Source of the DNA: Thioalkalivibrio sp. ALJ24
GTDB lineage: Bacteria; Pseudomonadota; Gammaproteobacteria; Ectothiorhodospirales; Ectothiorhodospiraceae
DNA: 64,000 nt
NCBI RefSeq assembly: GCF_000377785.1
Contig: NZ_KB898732.1
Location: 62,001 to 126,000, forward strand
Direction: 5' to 3'
The notes below the pieces were generated by a model. That model was not told the DNA's origin, did not search any database, and worked only from the letters and a program-made list of their open reading frames with translations. Every line of letters starts with the position of its first letter. Positions within the stretch are counted from its first letter, which is position 1. Positions 24,566 through 30,513 of the stretch are shown here, piece after piece. Position numbers and translations under genes: made by a program.

Positions 24566-24601
24566 CCCCGCGGAAGCGTTCCCCGCCCCGGCTCCGGCCA
24601 C

Positions 24602-24626
24602 AAAAAAGCCCGGCATCGCCGGGCTT
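24602..24626 (-). terminator. Intrinsic terminator of the rpmB-rpmG operon
   Basis: A 9-bp perfect stem AAGCCCGGC/GCCGGGCTT with a three-base loop. Read on the minus strand it runs into six Ts, so it terminates rpmBG. On the plus strand the T-run is broken (TTCTTC), so it may be only a weak terminator for the small plus-strand gene. Confidence 0.85.
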
Positions 24627-24657
24627 CTTCATGCGAGCGCGACACGACAGGTCGCGC

Positions 24658-24828
24658 TTACTTGATCTTGGCTTCCTTGTACATCACGTGCTTGCGGATG
24701 ACGGGATCGAACTTCTTGATCTCCATCTTTTCGGGCATGTTCCGCTTGTTCTTCGTGGTGGTGTAGAAGTGCCCGGTGCCGGCGGAGGACACCAGACGGA
24801 TCTTGTCGCGTGCGGTCTTGGCAGCCAT
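24658..24828 (-). CDS. rpmG: 50S ribosomal protein L33
   Basis: 56 residues, [18 protein letters not shown] then [36 protein letters not shown]. It is the Cys-free form of L33 (no CxxC zinc pairs), as in most gammaproteobacteria. It follows rpmB by 12 bases on the minus strand and ends just before the operon terminator. Confidence 0.96.
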
Positions 24829-24840
24829 CGTGACGTCTCC

Positions 24841-25077
24841 TTAAACCTTTTCGCCGCGGGCCCGGCAGTCGGCGAGGACCGCGTCGATGCCGCGCTTGTC
24901 GATGATGCGCATGCCCTTGCTGCTCAGGCGCAGCTTGACGAACCGCTTTTCGCTTTCCACCCAGAAACGATGGGTGTGCAGGTTCGGCAGGAAGCGACGC
25001 CGCGTCTTCCGCTGGGAATGCGAGACATTGTTACCGGTAGCCGGGCGCTTGCCCGTCACCTGACATACTCGGGACAT
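24841..25077 (-). CDS. rpmB: 50S ribosomal protein L28
   Basis: 78 residues starting [27 protein letters not shown], with [32 protein letters not shown], all hallmark L28 stretches. It is first in the rpmB-rpmG operon, with a near-consensus promoter upstream. Confidence 0.97.
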
Positions 25078-25119
25078 CGGGGCTACTCCAGATGTTCGGG
25101 TCGGGACGAAAGACCGCGG

Positions 25120-25148
25120 ATCCTAGCCGATTACGGGGGGCGTTGCAA
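25120..25148 (-). promoter_or_regulatory. Sigma70-type promoter for rpmBG
   Basis: On the minus strand, TTGCAA (25143-25148) and TAGGAT (25120-25125) are separated by exactly 17 bases, about 43 bases upstream of the rpmB start. Confidence 0.65.
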
Positions 25149-25253
25149 GCGTCTTGACGCTTCGTCATGGCGCGATGGACGGCGAAGGCCGCCCGCCGCG
25201 TCTATCTTCCGACACAGCACAAATAATGACAGCCGGTAACGGAGGGGACGGGA

Positions 25254-26138
25254 ATGAGAGCAGTGACGATGACACGCGGCATCGCCGGGATGGTCCTGGC
25301 CGGGATGATGGCCGGGCCACTGGCGGCGGACGAGGCGCAGACCGGCGACGGACAGTGGTGGTGGGACGACGACTGGTGGGAAGAGGGGCAGCTGAACCCC
25401 GATATCGAAAACCACGAGGTCGAGGTGGAACGCCTGGAATACGAGCGTGATGACGTGTTCGTTCCGGCCATGGTCGCGCGCCCGGCGGACGGAGAGGACT
25501 ATCCGGCCATCCTGTGGTCGCACGGGCGGCGCGGGCTGGACCATCTGGCCGAATTGCACGTGAAGCGGCTGGCGGCACGCGGATTCGTGGTGCTGGCGCC
25601 GGATCTGTATACCGGTCGTTTCATCGAATCCCACCCGCTGGATCACGACTACGAGCTGGAAGGGGATCTCGACCGCGGGCTGGACGTCCTGCTGGAACGC
25701 GACGACATCCTCGGAGACCGCGCCTGCCTGGTGTCCATTACCCGCGGCGGATACAAGACCCTCAAGGTCGCGGTGACTTATGAACGCCAGGTTCAAGACG
25801 TGGCCTGCTGGGCCGGGTACTACCCGCACGTGCAGGACCCGAACCTGGGCGAACCGCATCAGGTGTATCGCTACGCCAACGAGTTCAATCAGCTGGAGAT
25901 CCCGGTGATGATCCTGATCGGCGACGAGGAGCAGTACCAGCGCCACCGTACGGCGAAGATGGCCGCCGACGGGCTGAAGGATCGGGGCGGTGATGTCACC
26001 TGGATCGAGTACCCCGGCGTGGGTCGGGGGTTCGACTTCCGCAACGGCAACAACCGCACCTTCGCCGATGACCTCGCGGCGCGCGATGCGATGATGCGTG
26101 TCACCCGCTTCGCCAACCAGCACCTGCGGGACGACTGA
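25254..26138 (+). CDS. Secreted dienelactone-hydrolase-like protein lacking catalytic residues
   Basis: 294 residues. A signal peptide (about 1-25, ending GPLAA) is followed by an acidic Trp-rich linker (GQWWWDDDWWEE), then an alpha/beta-hydrolase fold of the dienelactone-hydrolase type. The nucleophile elbow, normally G-x-C/S-x-G-G, reads SITRGG, with Thr at the nucleophile position. The strand that normally ends YPGxGHGF reads YPGVGRGF, with Arg replacing the catalytic His. The acid Asp (IGDEEQ) remains. The protein is therefore probably a non-enzymatic binding or accessory protein. A good ribosome-binding site (GGAGGGGACGGG) precedes the ATG. It is followed by a second secreted protein and a TonB receptor, suggesting an uptake locus. 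Confidence 0.8.
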   Translation: MRAVTMTRGIAGMVLAGMMAGPLAADEAQTGDGQWWWDDDWWEEGQLNPDIENHEVEVERLEYERDDVFVPAMVARPADGEDYPAILWSHGRRGLDHLAELHVKRLAARGFVVLAPDLYTGRFIESHPLDHDYELEGDLDRGLDVLLERDDILGDRACLVSITRGGYKTLKVAVTYERQVQDVACWAGYYPHVQDPNLGEPHQVYRYANEFNQLEIPVMILIGDEEQYQRHRTAKMAADGLKDRGGDVTWIEYPGVGRGFDFRNGNNRTFADDLAARDAMMRVTRFANQHLRDD

Positions 26139-26203
26139 ACGCCGCGGCCCTCCGGGGTGTCAGCTTCCGAAGCGGGGACACGTGTGATCGAGGAGACGGT
26201 GCA

Positions 26204-27610
26204 ATGAAAAAGAGCGTGGTGTGGGTGGCGGCCACTACGGCAATGCTGGCGGGGCCGGTGCAGGCCGACCCGGCCGGTGTCGCGCACGGTCTGGATGCCC
26301 GCGATCGAGCCCTGGTGCATGCCGACGGGATGCGGGCCGAGGATGCGTTCATGGCGCTCGGGGCCCTGGCGGTCAAGGGTCGCCTGATGCGCGACAGTGA
26401 ACTGAGCCACGAGGCCTACCGCCCTGAGCTGGGGGAGGAGCCGATGCGGCGGGTCGGCGAGACCTGGCTCGGCCTGCTGGAGGCGGTGGATCGTGACCTG
26501 CTGGAAGAGGGGCGTCTGCGTGCGCGGGTCGGTGGTGATGCGGAGGCCGAACCGGCGGCCTATGCCGAGGCGGCGTACCTCTACCACATGCATCACAGTG
26601 GCGGGCGCTTCGAGCATCTCGATCTGTACGATGCGATCACCCATGACCCGCCGCCGGTGATGGCGGCGCTGACCTCTCACCTGGTGAACGAGCGTTACGC
26701 CGACGGCGAGGTGGCCACTGCCGGGGATTCGGAAGCGGATGCCCTGGCCTACGGCCTGGATGCCCTGCACGCACCGGCCTATGCATGGGTGCGCCAGCAA
26801 AAACCGGGTGGCGAGGACGACATGGGCCGGCTCGAGCGCGAGACCCTCGCGGGCTGGCTCGGCCACACGCGCGACGACATGGTCGCGATCGCCCGCTCCA
26901 TGGCGGACACCGCCGAGGCCGCCTGGGACGAAGACGCCGGGATGTTCGTGCGCGACGGCGGCGCGCGCTGGTCGGTGGATCAGATCGGAGCCCTGCTGCG
27001 AGGGCTCAAGGGGACCTACGAGACGCTCTACCTGTTCGGGGATGCGGACGACCGGGAACGGGCCGGGGTCCTTGCGGATCGCACCGCGTCGGTGACCCGG
27101 GCCCTGGTGGCCGAAGACGGTCCCGTGCGCGACTGGGGCCTGCCGGCCGAGGTGGAATTCGTGGACGGCGAGGCGCGTGCTGCCTCGGATCACGTGGATG
27201 TCGCGGCACAATGGCGGTTCGTCCACCAGGTCACCGGTGGATTTTCCCTGCTGCGCGAGCGCGAAGGGACCGCAAGGCTGCTGGGCGAGCGCGCACCGGA
27301 GCTGGAAGCCGAGCTGGGCGCGGCCATCGACCGGCTGCTGCAGGGGGCACTGGAACACCAGCCGGATACCGGTATCGTGCCCGCCCGGCTCGCCTACGCG
27401 GACGGATCGGTGACCGACCCCTCGGTGACCCTGCCGTCGGTGGCCGGCTTCATGATGGCCGTGGCCAACGGCTACCGCACGGGCGAGGCCTTCGACCACC
27501 CGGCGGCGTGGGAGGATGACGCTGCGCTGGCCGAGCGCAGCCGGGCGCTGTACGACACCTTCGTCGAGCACGGAGAGCTCCTGAGTCGCAAGCTGATCAT
27601 CCGGGAGTGA
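26204..27610 (+). CDS. Secreted helical protein of unknown function, upstream of a TonB receptor
   Basis: 468 residues. The signal peptide MKKSVVWVAATTAMLAGPVQA ends in an AQA-type cleavage site. The mature part is nearly all alpha-helical with repeated helix pairs, plus WAWVRQQ-like and DWGLPAEVEFVDG segments, and could form an alpha/alpha toroid or helical-repeat solenoid. No catalytic motif, heme motif or lipobox is visible. A ribosome-binding site (GAGGAGACGG) precedes the ATG. It lies 65 bases after the pseudo-hydrolase gene and six bases before the TonB-dependent receptor, so it probably works in the periplasm with that receptor. Family not recognised. Confidence 0.75.
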   Translation: MKKSVVWVAATTAMLAGPVQADPAGVAHGLDARDRALVHADGMRAEDAFMALGALAVKGRLMRDSELSHEAYRPELGEEPMRRVGETWLGLLEAVDRDLLEEGRLRARVGGDAEAEPAAYAEAAYLYHMHHSGGRFEHLDLYDAITHDPPPVMAALTSHLVNERYADGEVATAGDSEADALAYGLDALHAPAYAWVRQQKPGGEDDMGRLERETLAGWLGHTRDDMVAIARSMADTAEAAWDEDAGMFVRDGGARWSVDQIGALLRGLKGTYETLYLFGDADDRERAGVLADRTASVTRALVAEDGPVRDWGLPAEVEFVDGEARAASDHVDVAAQWRFVHQVTGGFSLLREREGTARLLGERAPELEAELGAAIDRLLQGALEHQPDTGIVPARLAYADGSVTDPSVTLPSVAGFMMAVANGYRTGEAFDHPAAWEDDAALAERSRALYDTFVEHGELLSRKLIIRE

Positions 27611-27616
27611 GTCGCC

Positions 27617-29746
27617 ATGTCGGTAGTCGGTCCGCACCCGAACACCCGGACTTCCACGGCGCCCGTCGCGCTGCTCGCGCCCGCCCTGGCAGTGTCCGCT
27701 CTGGCGGTTCCGGCGGGCGCGTCCGGCGACGACACCCCGGTGCTGGATCCGGTGGAGGTCACGGCGCCGCGGCTGACGACACCGCTGGCCGAGCTGCCGG
27801 CATCGGTCAGCCGGGTGGACGGGCGTCAGGCCACCGAGGCGCGCCAGGGGCTGCAGCTGGACGAGGCGCTCAACCGGGTGCCCGGGCTGTATGCGCAGAA
27901 CCGCCACAACTTCGCCCAGGACGTGCGCATCTCCATCCGTGGCTTCGGCTCGCGGGCGCCGTTCGGAGTGCGCGGGCTGCGCATCCTGCAGGACGGCATC
28001 CCCGAGACCACGCCCGACGGGCAGTCGCAGGTGGATGCGATCGACCTGCTGAACATCCGTGACATCGAGGTGCTGCGCGGGCCCAGTGCGGCGCTGTACG
28101 GAAACGCCTCGGGCGGGGTGATATCGATCCGCACCCGCGACGGCAGCGAGCCCCGCGGGCATGGGGGCGGAGTGCTGGCGGGCTCGCACGGGTTCCGCCG
28201 GCTGGAGGCGACCAGCGAGGCGGATCTCGGCGAGCACCGCTACTCGCTGACCGCGCACGACTTCCGCATGGATGGCTACCGTGACCAGTCGCGGGCGGAA
28301 AAGCGCTATCTGCGTCTGCATACGGCAAGCGAACTGGGCGCGGGCACGCTGCGCACCCACCTGCGCTACCTCGATGCCCCGCGTACCGACGACCCGGGCG
28401 GGCTGACCCGCGACGAGCTGCGCGAGGATCGGCGCCAGGCGGCTCCGAACGCCGAGTTGCTGGACTCGACTCAGGAGGCCGAACAGCTGACCGCCGGGCT
28501 GCGCTGGGAACAGCCGGTGGGGGACGCCGAACTGCGCGTCGGCGGATTCTGGACGCAGCGCGACTACGCCCAGCAGCTGCCGTTTCCGGGGGACAGCCGG
28601 GTGGCCTACGAGCGCGACTTCTACGGGCTGAATGCGCAGCTGGAGGGCGATCTCGGGCCAACGCGCTGGCTGGCGGGCGTGGATCTGGAGGAGCAGCGCG
28701 ACGAGCGGACGCGCCGCTGCACTTCGGGCACGTTCGTGCCCGGTCAGGTGGATTGTGACCCGGACGCCGTGATCGGCGATCTCGCTCTGGAGCAGACCGA
28801 ACGCGCCCGCACTCGCGGCGCCTTCCTGCATACCGACACCCTGCTGGGCGAGGACTGGAACCTGGTGCTGGGGGCGCGTCACGATCGTATCCGTTTCCGC
28901 ATCGACGATGACTTCGCCGAGTCCGAGGAGATCGACGAGCCGGACCGTTCCGACAGCCGGACCTATCGCGAGGAGAGCCTAATGGCCGGGCTGGTGTGGC
29001 ATTTCCGCCCGGGACAGCGGGCCTGGGTCAACGTGGCCACCAATTTCGAGACCCCGACCTTCACCGAATTCGCCAATCCCGAAGGGGACGGTTCCAGGGG
29101 CGGTTTCAACCCGGACCTGGAACCGCAGAGGGCACGCAGCCTGGAGCTGGGCTGGCGCGGCGAACAGGGTGCGTTCGGCTGGGAGGCGGTGGTCTGGAGT
29201 ACACGGGTGCGCGATGAGATCACGCCGTTTCAGCTCGAAGACGCGGGCGATCGGGATTTCTACACCAATGCCGGGCGCACCGCGCGCGACGGGCTGGAAC
29301 TGGCGCTGGACTGGCAGGCGACGCCGCAATGGACCCTGAGCGGGGCCTTCACCCTCAATGATTTCCGCTTTCGCGAATACGAAGACGTCGAAGGCGTGCG
29401 CCACGACGGCAATCGGCTGCCCGGACTCCCGCGCGAGCAGCTGTTCCTGGAGGCCGACTGGCGCGAGGCCCCGTGGTTCGTCACCGTGGATGCCCTGCAC
29501 GCCGGGGCGCGCTACGCCGACGACGCCAACGACGAGCGCGTCGGCTCGCAGACCACGGTCAACCTGCGCGCCGGGCGCGAGTGGAGCCGCAACGGGGCGA
29601 ACATCGAAACCTTCGTCGGTGCGGACAATCTGCTGGATGCGGACAACATCGACAACGTGCGCATCAATGCCAACTTCGGACGGCATTACGAACCCGCTCC
29701 GGGCCTGACCCTGCGCGCGGGCCTGCGGGTGACCTTCGGGGATTAA
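27617..29746 (+). CDS. TonB-dependent outer-membrane receptor (PqqU/YncD-like plug)
   Basis: 709 residues. After a signal-like segment (about 15-36) comes a TonB-box-like DPVEVTAPRL and a plug domain: LQLDEALNRVPGLYAQNRHNFAQDVRISIRGFG, FGVRGLRILQDGIPETTPDGQSQVDAIDL, EVLRGPSAALYGNASGGVI. A beta barrel ends in LRAGLRVTFGD with a terminal aromatic-type strand. The IRGFG..FGVRG..DGIP.T.PDGQ pattern resembles the YncD/PqqU subgroup, but other metal-chelate receptors share parts of it, so the substrate is open. It imports a scarce ligand with TonB energy. It overlaps the convergent rhomboid gene at the stop codons by four bases. Confidence 0.92.
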   Translation: MSVVGPHPNTRTSTAPVALLAPALAVSALAVPAGASGDDTPVLDPVEVTAPRLTTPLAELPASVSRVDGRQATEARQGLQLDEALNRVPGLYAQNRHNFAQDVRISIRGFGSRAPFGVRGLRILQDGIPETTPDGQSQVDAIDLLNIRDIEVLRGPSAALYGNASGGVISIRTRDGSEPRGHGGGVLAGSHGFRRLEATSEADLGEHRYSLTAHDFRMDGYRDQSRAEKRYLRLHTASELGAGTLRTHLRYLDAPRTDDPGGLTRDELREDRRQAAPNAELLDSTQEAEQLTAGLRWEQPVGDAELRVGGFWTQRDYAQQLPFPGDSRVAYERDFYGLNAQLEGDLGPTRWLAGVDLEEQRDERTRRCTSGTFVPGQVDCDPDAVIGDLALEQTERARTRGAFLHTDTLLGEDWNLVLGARHDRIRFRIDDDFAESEEIDEPDRSDSRTYREESLMAGLVWHFRPGQRAWVNVATNFETPTFTEFANPEGDGSRGGFNPDLEPQRARSLELGWRGEQGAFGWEAVVWSTRVRDEITPFQLEDAGDRDFYTNAGRTARDGLELALDWQATPQWTLSGAFTLNDFRFREYEDVEGVRHDGNRLPGLPREQLFLEADWREAPWFVTVDALHAGARYADDANDERVGSQTTVNLRAGREWSRNGANIETFVGADNLLDADNIDNVRINANFGRHYEPAPGLTLRAGLRVTFGD

Positions 29747-30513
29747 CCCCGGCGGTCGGGCGGATCGTCGGGGCCATCGGGGCCGCCGGGGCCGTGCTCG
29801 TCGCGGTGGCGGGGCGGTTCGATCTCGTCGAGGCGACCCTGCTCGATCTTGCGCAGGGTCTCGGCGTCGGTGGGGTCGTCGGGGTCTTCTTCCCATTCGT
29901 AGCGGTGCGCCACCGGGAAGGGGTCGCGGCGGTACAGGAACCAGCCGCAGACCGCGCCCACGGTCGCGCCGAACAGATGTGCCTCGAACGAGACCCTCGG
30001 TGCGGTCGGAAACACGCCCCACATCATGCTGCCGTAGAGGAACAGCACGATGATCGTCAGGGCGATCGACAGCGCATCGCGGCGGCGGATGCCGATGACC
30101 ACGGCAAAGAACATCAGGCCATGGGTCAGGCCGCTGGCGCCGATGTGCAGACCTTCGCGGGCGAACAGCCAGACCCCGAGGCCACCCATCACCCAGATCA
30201 GCGGGACCGCGGTGCGCGTGGCCTGCGGAAAGCCGTAGAGCGTCAGGATGCCCAGCACCCACAGGGTGGGGGCGTTGGACATCAGGTGTCCCCAGGAACC
30301 GTGGATCAGGGGCGAGGTGAAGATCCCCAGCGCGCCGACACCGTCGCGCGGCAGGATGCCCAGGCGCGAGAAGTCCGCGCCCAGCAGTTCCTGCAGGGCG
30401 TGGATCAGGACCAGGGCCATCACCCCGAAGAAGGGCCACAGCAGCGCTCGCCGGAAGCGTTCGCGATCGGCCGCGGGGTCCGTCGGGGGTGCCGGACGTC
30501 GCAGATTCAGCAT
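29743..30513 (-). CDS. Rhomboid-family intramembrane serine protease
   Basis: 256 residues. Six or so membrane segments span about 20-200, with HGSWGHLMSNAPTLWVLG (the His/Asn region of helix 2), the catalytic Ser in GASGLTHGLMF and the catalytic His in FEAHLFGATVGAVCGWFLYRRDP. The C-terminal tail is hydrophilic, acidic and Pro/Gly/Asp-rich (GGPDGPDDPPDRRG). It cleaves transmembrane substrates; the target is unknown. The start MLNLRRPAPP was preferred over an ATG twelve codons upstream. It ends tail-to-tail with the TonB receptor gene. Confidence 0.88.
   Translation of the reverse strand: MLNLRRPAPPTDPAADRERFRRALLWPFFGVMALVLIHALQELLGADFSRLGILPRDGVGALGIFTSPLIHGSWGHLMSNAPTLWVLGILTLYGFPQATRTAVPLIWVMGGLGVWLFAREGLHIGASGLTHGLMFFAVVIGIRRRDALSIALTIIVLFLYGSMMWGVFPTAPRVSFEAHLFGATVGAVCGWFLYRRDPFPVAHRYEWEEDPDDPTDAETLRKIEQGRLDEIEPPRHRDEHGPGGPDGPDDPPDRRG

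Follow-up and report, generated by a model that had tools for sequence, protein, structure and literature searches.

Gene layout of the locus

The window, by which we mean the whole 64,000-nucleotide stretch that was analysed, belongs to a genome of 2.8 Mb whose closest named matches are Thioalkalivibrio. Three open reading frames on the plus strand, referred to here as DLH, HEL and TBDR, occupy positions 25254–29746 and are separated by gaps of 65 bp (DLH–HEL) and 6 bp (HEL–TBDR). The genes and the sites discussed below are:

25254–26138, plus strand: DLH, a secreted pseudo-dienelactone-hydrolase-family protein of 294 aa (Pfam match, AlphaFold model with Foldseek search, family survey)
25740–25742, plus strand: codon of DLH Thr163, nucleophile-elbow position, aligned to the Cys of 4zv9
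26025–26027, plus strand: codon of DLH Arg258, catalytic-His position, aligned to the His of 4zv9
26147–27678, plus strand: segment missing from the syntenic locus of genome G012, amounting to presence or absence of HEL alone (blastn)
26204–27610, plus strand: HEL, a secreted helical protein of 468 aa, predicted to be (α/α)6-barrel-like, with the invariant motifs YHMHH and KPGGxxDMG
27617–29746, plus strand: TBDR, a TonB-dependent receptor of 709 aa, PqqU type (plug and barrel, YncD/PqqU match, PQQ signature)
27962–27964, plus strand: codon of TBDR Phe116, equivalent to PqqU Tyr99, a position at which the published signature also allows Phe (PMC12124388)
28559–28561, plus strand: codon of TBDR Arg315, equivalent to PqqU Arg304
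28706–28708, plus strand: codon of TBDR Arg364, equivalent to PqqU Arg365

The rpmB and rpmG genes upstream of DLH lie on the other strand (as read from the sequence) and are divergent, and the rhomboid gene downstream of TBDR is convergent; a single DLH–HEL–TBDR transcription unit is therefore plausible. An earlier, sequence-only reading of this DNA had proposed three genes for secreted proteins in a row, accompanied by no ABC permease, and both points hold: the genes share one strand, no permease is found in the block, and the flanks are rpmG/rpmB and rhomboid. The signal peptides of all three proteins were judged by eye. A promoter scan of positions 24600–30000 returned no sigma-70-like promoter, a result that is uninformative at such a G+C content.

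The receptor and its probable ligand

TBDR consists of a plug and a barrel, and its best PDB matches are YncD/PqqU (E ~1e-83), the TonB-dependent PQQ transporter of Escherichia coli (PDB 6V81, 9C4O; PMC12124388), with similarity over the full length. PqqU has been defined by the signature Y/F/W99, R304 and R365 (Munder et al., PMC12124388), which is matched in TBDR by F116, R315 and R364. The same signature columns were obtained with an independent MAFFT alignment, and the signature is absent from BtuB, FepA and FhuA. TBDR also shares the PqqU positions Q84, Q121, Q308 and R536 (as Q101, Q138, Q319 and R546), whereas K274, N477 and Y481 are replaced by Gln, Thr and Asn, respectively. F116, R315, R364, Q101, Q138 and R546, but not Q319, are invariant in 30 homologues with identities down to 47%. 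In a tree with long branches and weak fork support, TBDR groups with E. coli PqqU in a clade separate from BtuB, FepA and FhuA. The score of TBDR against the NCBIfam PqqU equivalog NF041535 is 360 bits, below the cut-off of 1200 (E. coli PqqU itself scores 1312), and hence the protein is labelled PqqU-type rather than PqqU.

The earlier recognition of a TonB receptor with a PqqU/YncD-like plug thus stands, but the accompanying statement that the ligand is unknown holds only in part, as the published PQQ signature narrows the choice. Because the signature is present in TBDR and invariant in the 30 homologues, PQQ is the best guess for the ligand. TBDR would probably import PQQ to the periplasm in a TonB-driven process; periplasmic use of PQQ, as known from E. 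coli, would leave no inner-membrane permease to be expected, and such a permease accompanies neither PqqU nor TBDR. A search for literature on Thioalkalivibrio TonB receptors found nothing relevant. Within the class, a further PqqU-like subgroup (L200–L217) has Glu at the position of K274, where E. coli has Lys and TBDR has Gln; Glu at this position has been linked to possible metal co-transport (PMC12124388).

The window genome differs from the E. coli system in that no PQQ dehydrogenase was detected in it by a search for PF01011. Its sole PF13360 match, considered as a candidate PQQ user, was rejected as a BamB-like protein located next to der. Receptors of this type are present in 33 of the 47 genomes of the order, and a genuine PQQ dehydrogenase in one of these 33, the congener G037, which encodes a PQQ alcohol dehydrogenase (TIGR03075 above cut-off; L222:451-2778); no other genuine one was found in the order. 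The remaining PF01011 matches in the order are weak and mostly lie in open reading frames of BamB-like length. A PQQ biosynthesis search with TIGR02111 gave 0 matches, and likewise 0 in the control genomes. Among PqqU carriers at large, 67% encode a PQQ-dependent enzyme, and eight Ectothiorhodospirales carriers without PQQ enzymes have been reported, with their use of PQQ left open (PMC12124388).

That no PQQ user was found in nearly all receptor carriers, together with the replacement of K274 by Gln, would also fit import of a ligand other than PQQ, be it cobalamin, heme or a metal chelate, with the PQQ-site residues reflecting ancestry only. Cobalamin in particular is suggested by another Thioalkalivibrio clade, where the receptor gene is located after an operon for class II ribonucleotide reductase. 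However, the PQQ-contact residues are strictly invariant, and TBDR scores 104 bits against the B12 receptor model (cut-off 600). The receptor loci contain no cobalamin or other Rfam riboswitch, on which ground the cobalamin link drawn from the nrdJ neighbourhood of this one clade was rejected. A ligand other than PQQ is accordingly considered unlikely. The gene order in that clade is class II ribonucleotide reductase, a TSCPD gene, an uncharacterised gene and then the receptor (L109, L110, L111, L113, L093, L094); an intein is present in the L109 reductase.

The hydrolase-like and helical proteins

DLH matches the Pfam dienelactone hydrolase family (PF01738) with 46 bits (cut-off 21). Its AlphaFold model (pLDDT 86, pTM 0.83) has dienelactone hydrolases and esterases as the closest PDB folds in Foldseek. 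In a profile alignment with the solved homologue 4zv9, the segments FCYGG and YPGVNHGF correspond to ITRGG and YPGVGRGF of DLH, such that Thr163 and Arg258 occupy the expected positions of the Cys and the His. DLH therefore has the fold of a catalytic dienelactone hydrolase, with neither the Cys/Ser nucleophile nor the catalytic His, which confirms the earlier description. It further differs from the enzymes of the family in being secreted and in belonging to a tight, separate group with conserved Arg-rich motifs of its own.

The altered triad is kept in 41 family members, Arg258 is invariant, and Ser replaces Thr in a single tandem duplicate (position 163, in G019; L087:6218-7093); relatives retaining the catalytic residues, which would have marked this copy as simply mutated, were thus not what was found. 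A search with the family profile detected members in 33 of 369 Gammaproteobacteria genomes, representing 26 of 271 genera (~10%); all 33 members had E < 1e-110, with nothing between this value and the reporting limit of 1e-30. The aligned members contain many invariant Arg residues and share the motifs HGRxG, [HI]TRGGY, [ED]QYxRxR, YPGVxR[GA]F[DE]FR and RxFADDL, also given for the family in the narrower form HGRRG, [HI]TRGGY, EQYQRxR, YPGVGRGFDFR and RxFADDLA. Judged from these sequences, the pseudo-DLHs are a distinct, conserved and widespread family, and the altered triad is not a local mutation, since Thr163 and Arg258 are kept throughout. The family is independent of the receptor in our proposal, and its members probably bind or process a substrate of their own.

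No pseudo-DLH gene was found on plasmids. A search for a constant neighbour across distant genomes also found none, with a home-made gene caller that overlooked the pseudo-DLH gene at several loci. No relevant literature on a DLH pseudoenzyme was found, nor an assigned function for a periplasmic, triad-altered DLH family. Three distant pseudo-DLHs are fused to a metallo-beta-lactamase-fold domain (L162:1537-3342, L165:9626-11401, L166:1340-3103). This domain is nearest to TIGR04559/TIGR04558 (SoxH-related, "quinoprotein relay"), at ~141 bits (cut-off 280), and its first zinc motif looks degenerate; two of the three genomes also have a PqqU-type receptor.

HEL has no match in Pfam, NCBIfam or PDB sequences, including in a PDB sequence-profile search. 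The earlier description of a 468-residue secreted helical protein is borne out by a structure model that is helical (pLDDT 80), built from 14 sequences with five models of uneven quality. The model resembles (α/α)6-barrel enzymes of the AGE/cellobiose 2-epimerase type (Foldseek E 2.5e-5, probability 1.00) at the fold level only, with a TM-score of just 0.48–0.56, ~12% identity and no sequence match. HEL is thus predicted to be an (α/α)6-barrel-like periplasmic protein, as a fold-level hint rather than an assignment. It has invariant His and Arg residues, and two distant homologues start like lipoproteins, which fits a periplasmic location.

Distribution and arrangement of the three genes

The pseudo-DLH gene is present in most of the 47 genomes of the order, and HEL in 10; HEL was found in four of the 369 class genomes and, in a phylum sample of 398 genomes, only in the window genome itself. 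The earlier reading had taken the three genes together as a new ligand-capture system. They are contiguous and all exported in the window genome, DLH and TBDR are also adjacent in G012, and the two are associated within the order (25/1/4/8, P = 8e-5), although this value comes from a naive Fisher test confounded by shared ancestry. Against this, the contiguous set occurs in the window genome only, among the genomes surveyed, and outside the order DLH and TBDR co-occur at the level of chance: 30 class genomes have DLH and 37 have the receptor, with an overlap of four against 3.0 expected (P = 0.36), such that 26 of the 30 DLH genomes are without a PqqU-type receptor. The three genes do not co-occur across genomes. 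As they are found separately in most genomes, both in the order and in the class, the three-component system is not supported; it is largely refuted by these distributions, and we regard it as very improbable.

In many congeners DLH lies 1.3 to ~45 kb from the receptor, and in the other clade it is far off. The closest relative, G012, carries DLH and TBDR at the same site without HEL: its locus (L101) is collinear with the window at 85–88% identity on both sides, and the blastn matches stop at 26147 and restart at 27679. The window genome also contains a decayed second pseudo-DLH, ~90% identical but lacking an internal segment, next to a porin gene (G000:C3:218397-218578; L119:9848-10078), as well as a second intact HEL, ~62% identical, adjoining Usp and SulP genes (G000:C11:8260-9627, L118). 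Since porin and Usp/SulP genes neighbour the same genes in related species, these copies are read as remains of an ancestral arrangement, and the DLH–HEL–TBDR block as having been re-assembled, specifically in this lineage, from genes that had been loose neighbours before.

HEL lies directly upstream of TBDR in eight Thioalkalivibrio genomes, namely the window genome and seven congeners, despite differing genes further upstream (porin, BCCT transporter and others). This adjacency, with the 6 bp gap in the window genome, the signal peptide of HEL and its invariant His and Arg residues, would suit a two-gene uptake module. The imported ligand would then be bound or modified by HEL in the periplasm, and the pseudo-DLH would be incidental. 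HEL is, however, unlinked to TBDR in G012, G014 and G390, occurs in G332, where no PqqU-type receptor was detected, and is missing from most receptor-carrying genomes. A functional tie is possible in view of the eight species, and a two-gene module of this kind is a possible though rather unlikely reading.

We therefore favor, as the probable explanation, a PqqU-type receptor that imports PQQ, with two genes that came to lie upstream by happenstance rather than as parts of one three-part system. HEL would be an optional periplasmic protein, often located directly before the receptor gene in Thioalkalivibrio, where both genes may share a transcript. Viewed as a new uptake locus, the region is ordinary; what interest is left lies in an importer for which no user was detected and in a conserved, retooled hydrolase family.

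The first of these extends the published puzzle of a PQQ importer kept without a known PQQ enzyme from eight to about 30 genomes, and does not solve it. One conceivable though highly improbable answer is that, in the receptor-bearing Ectothiorhodospirales that have no quinoprotein, HEL or the Arg-rich pseudo-DLH is an unrecognised periplasmic protein that binds or uses PQQ; if so, imported PQQ would have a role outside dehydrogenases. The second defines a conserved periplasmic dienelactone-hydrolase family with an altered triad, present in about a tenth of the gammaproteobacterial genera sampled.
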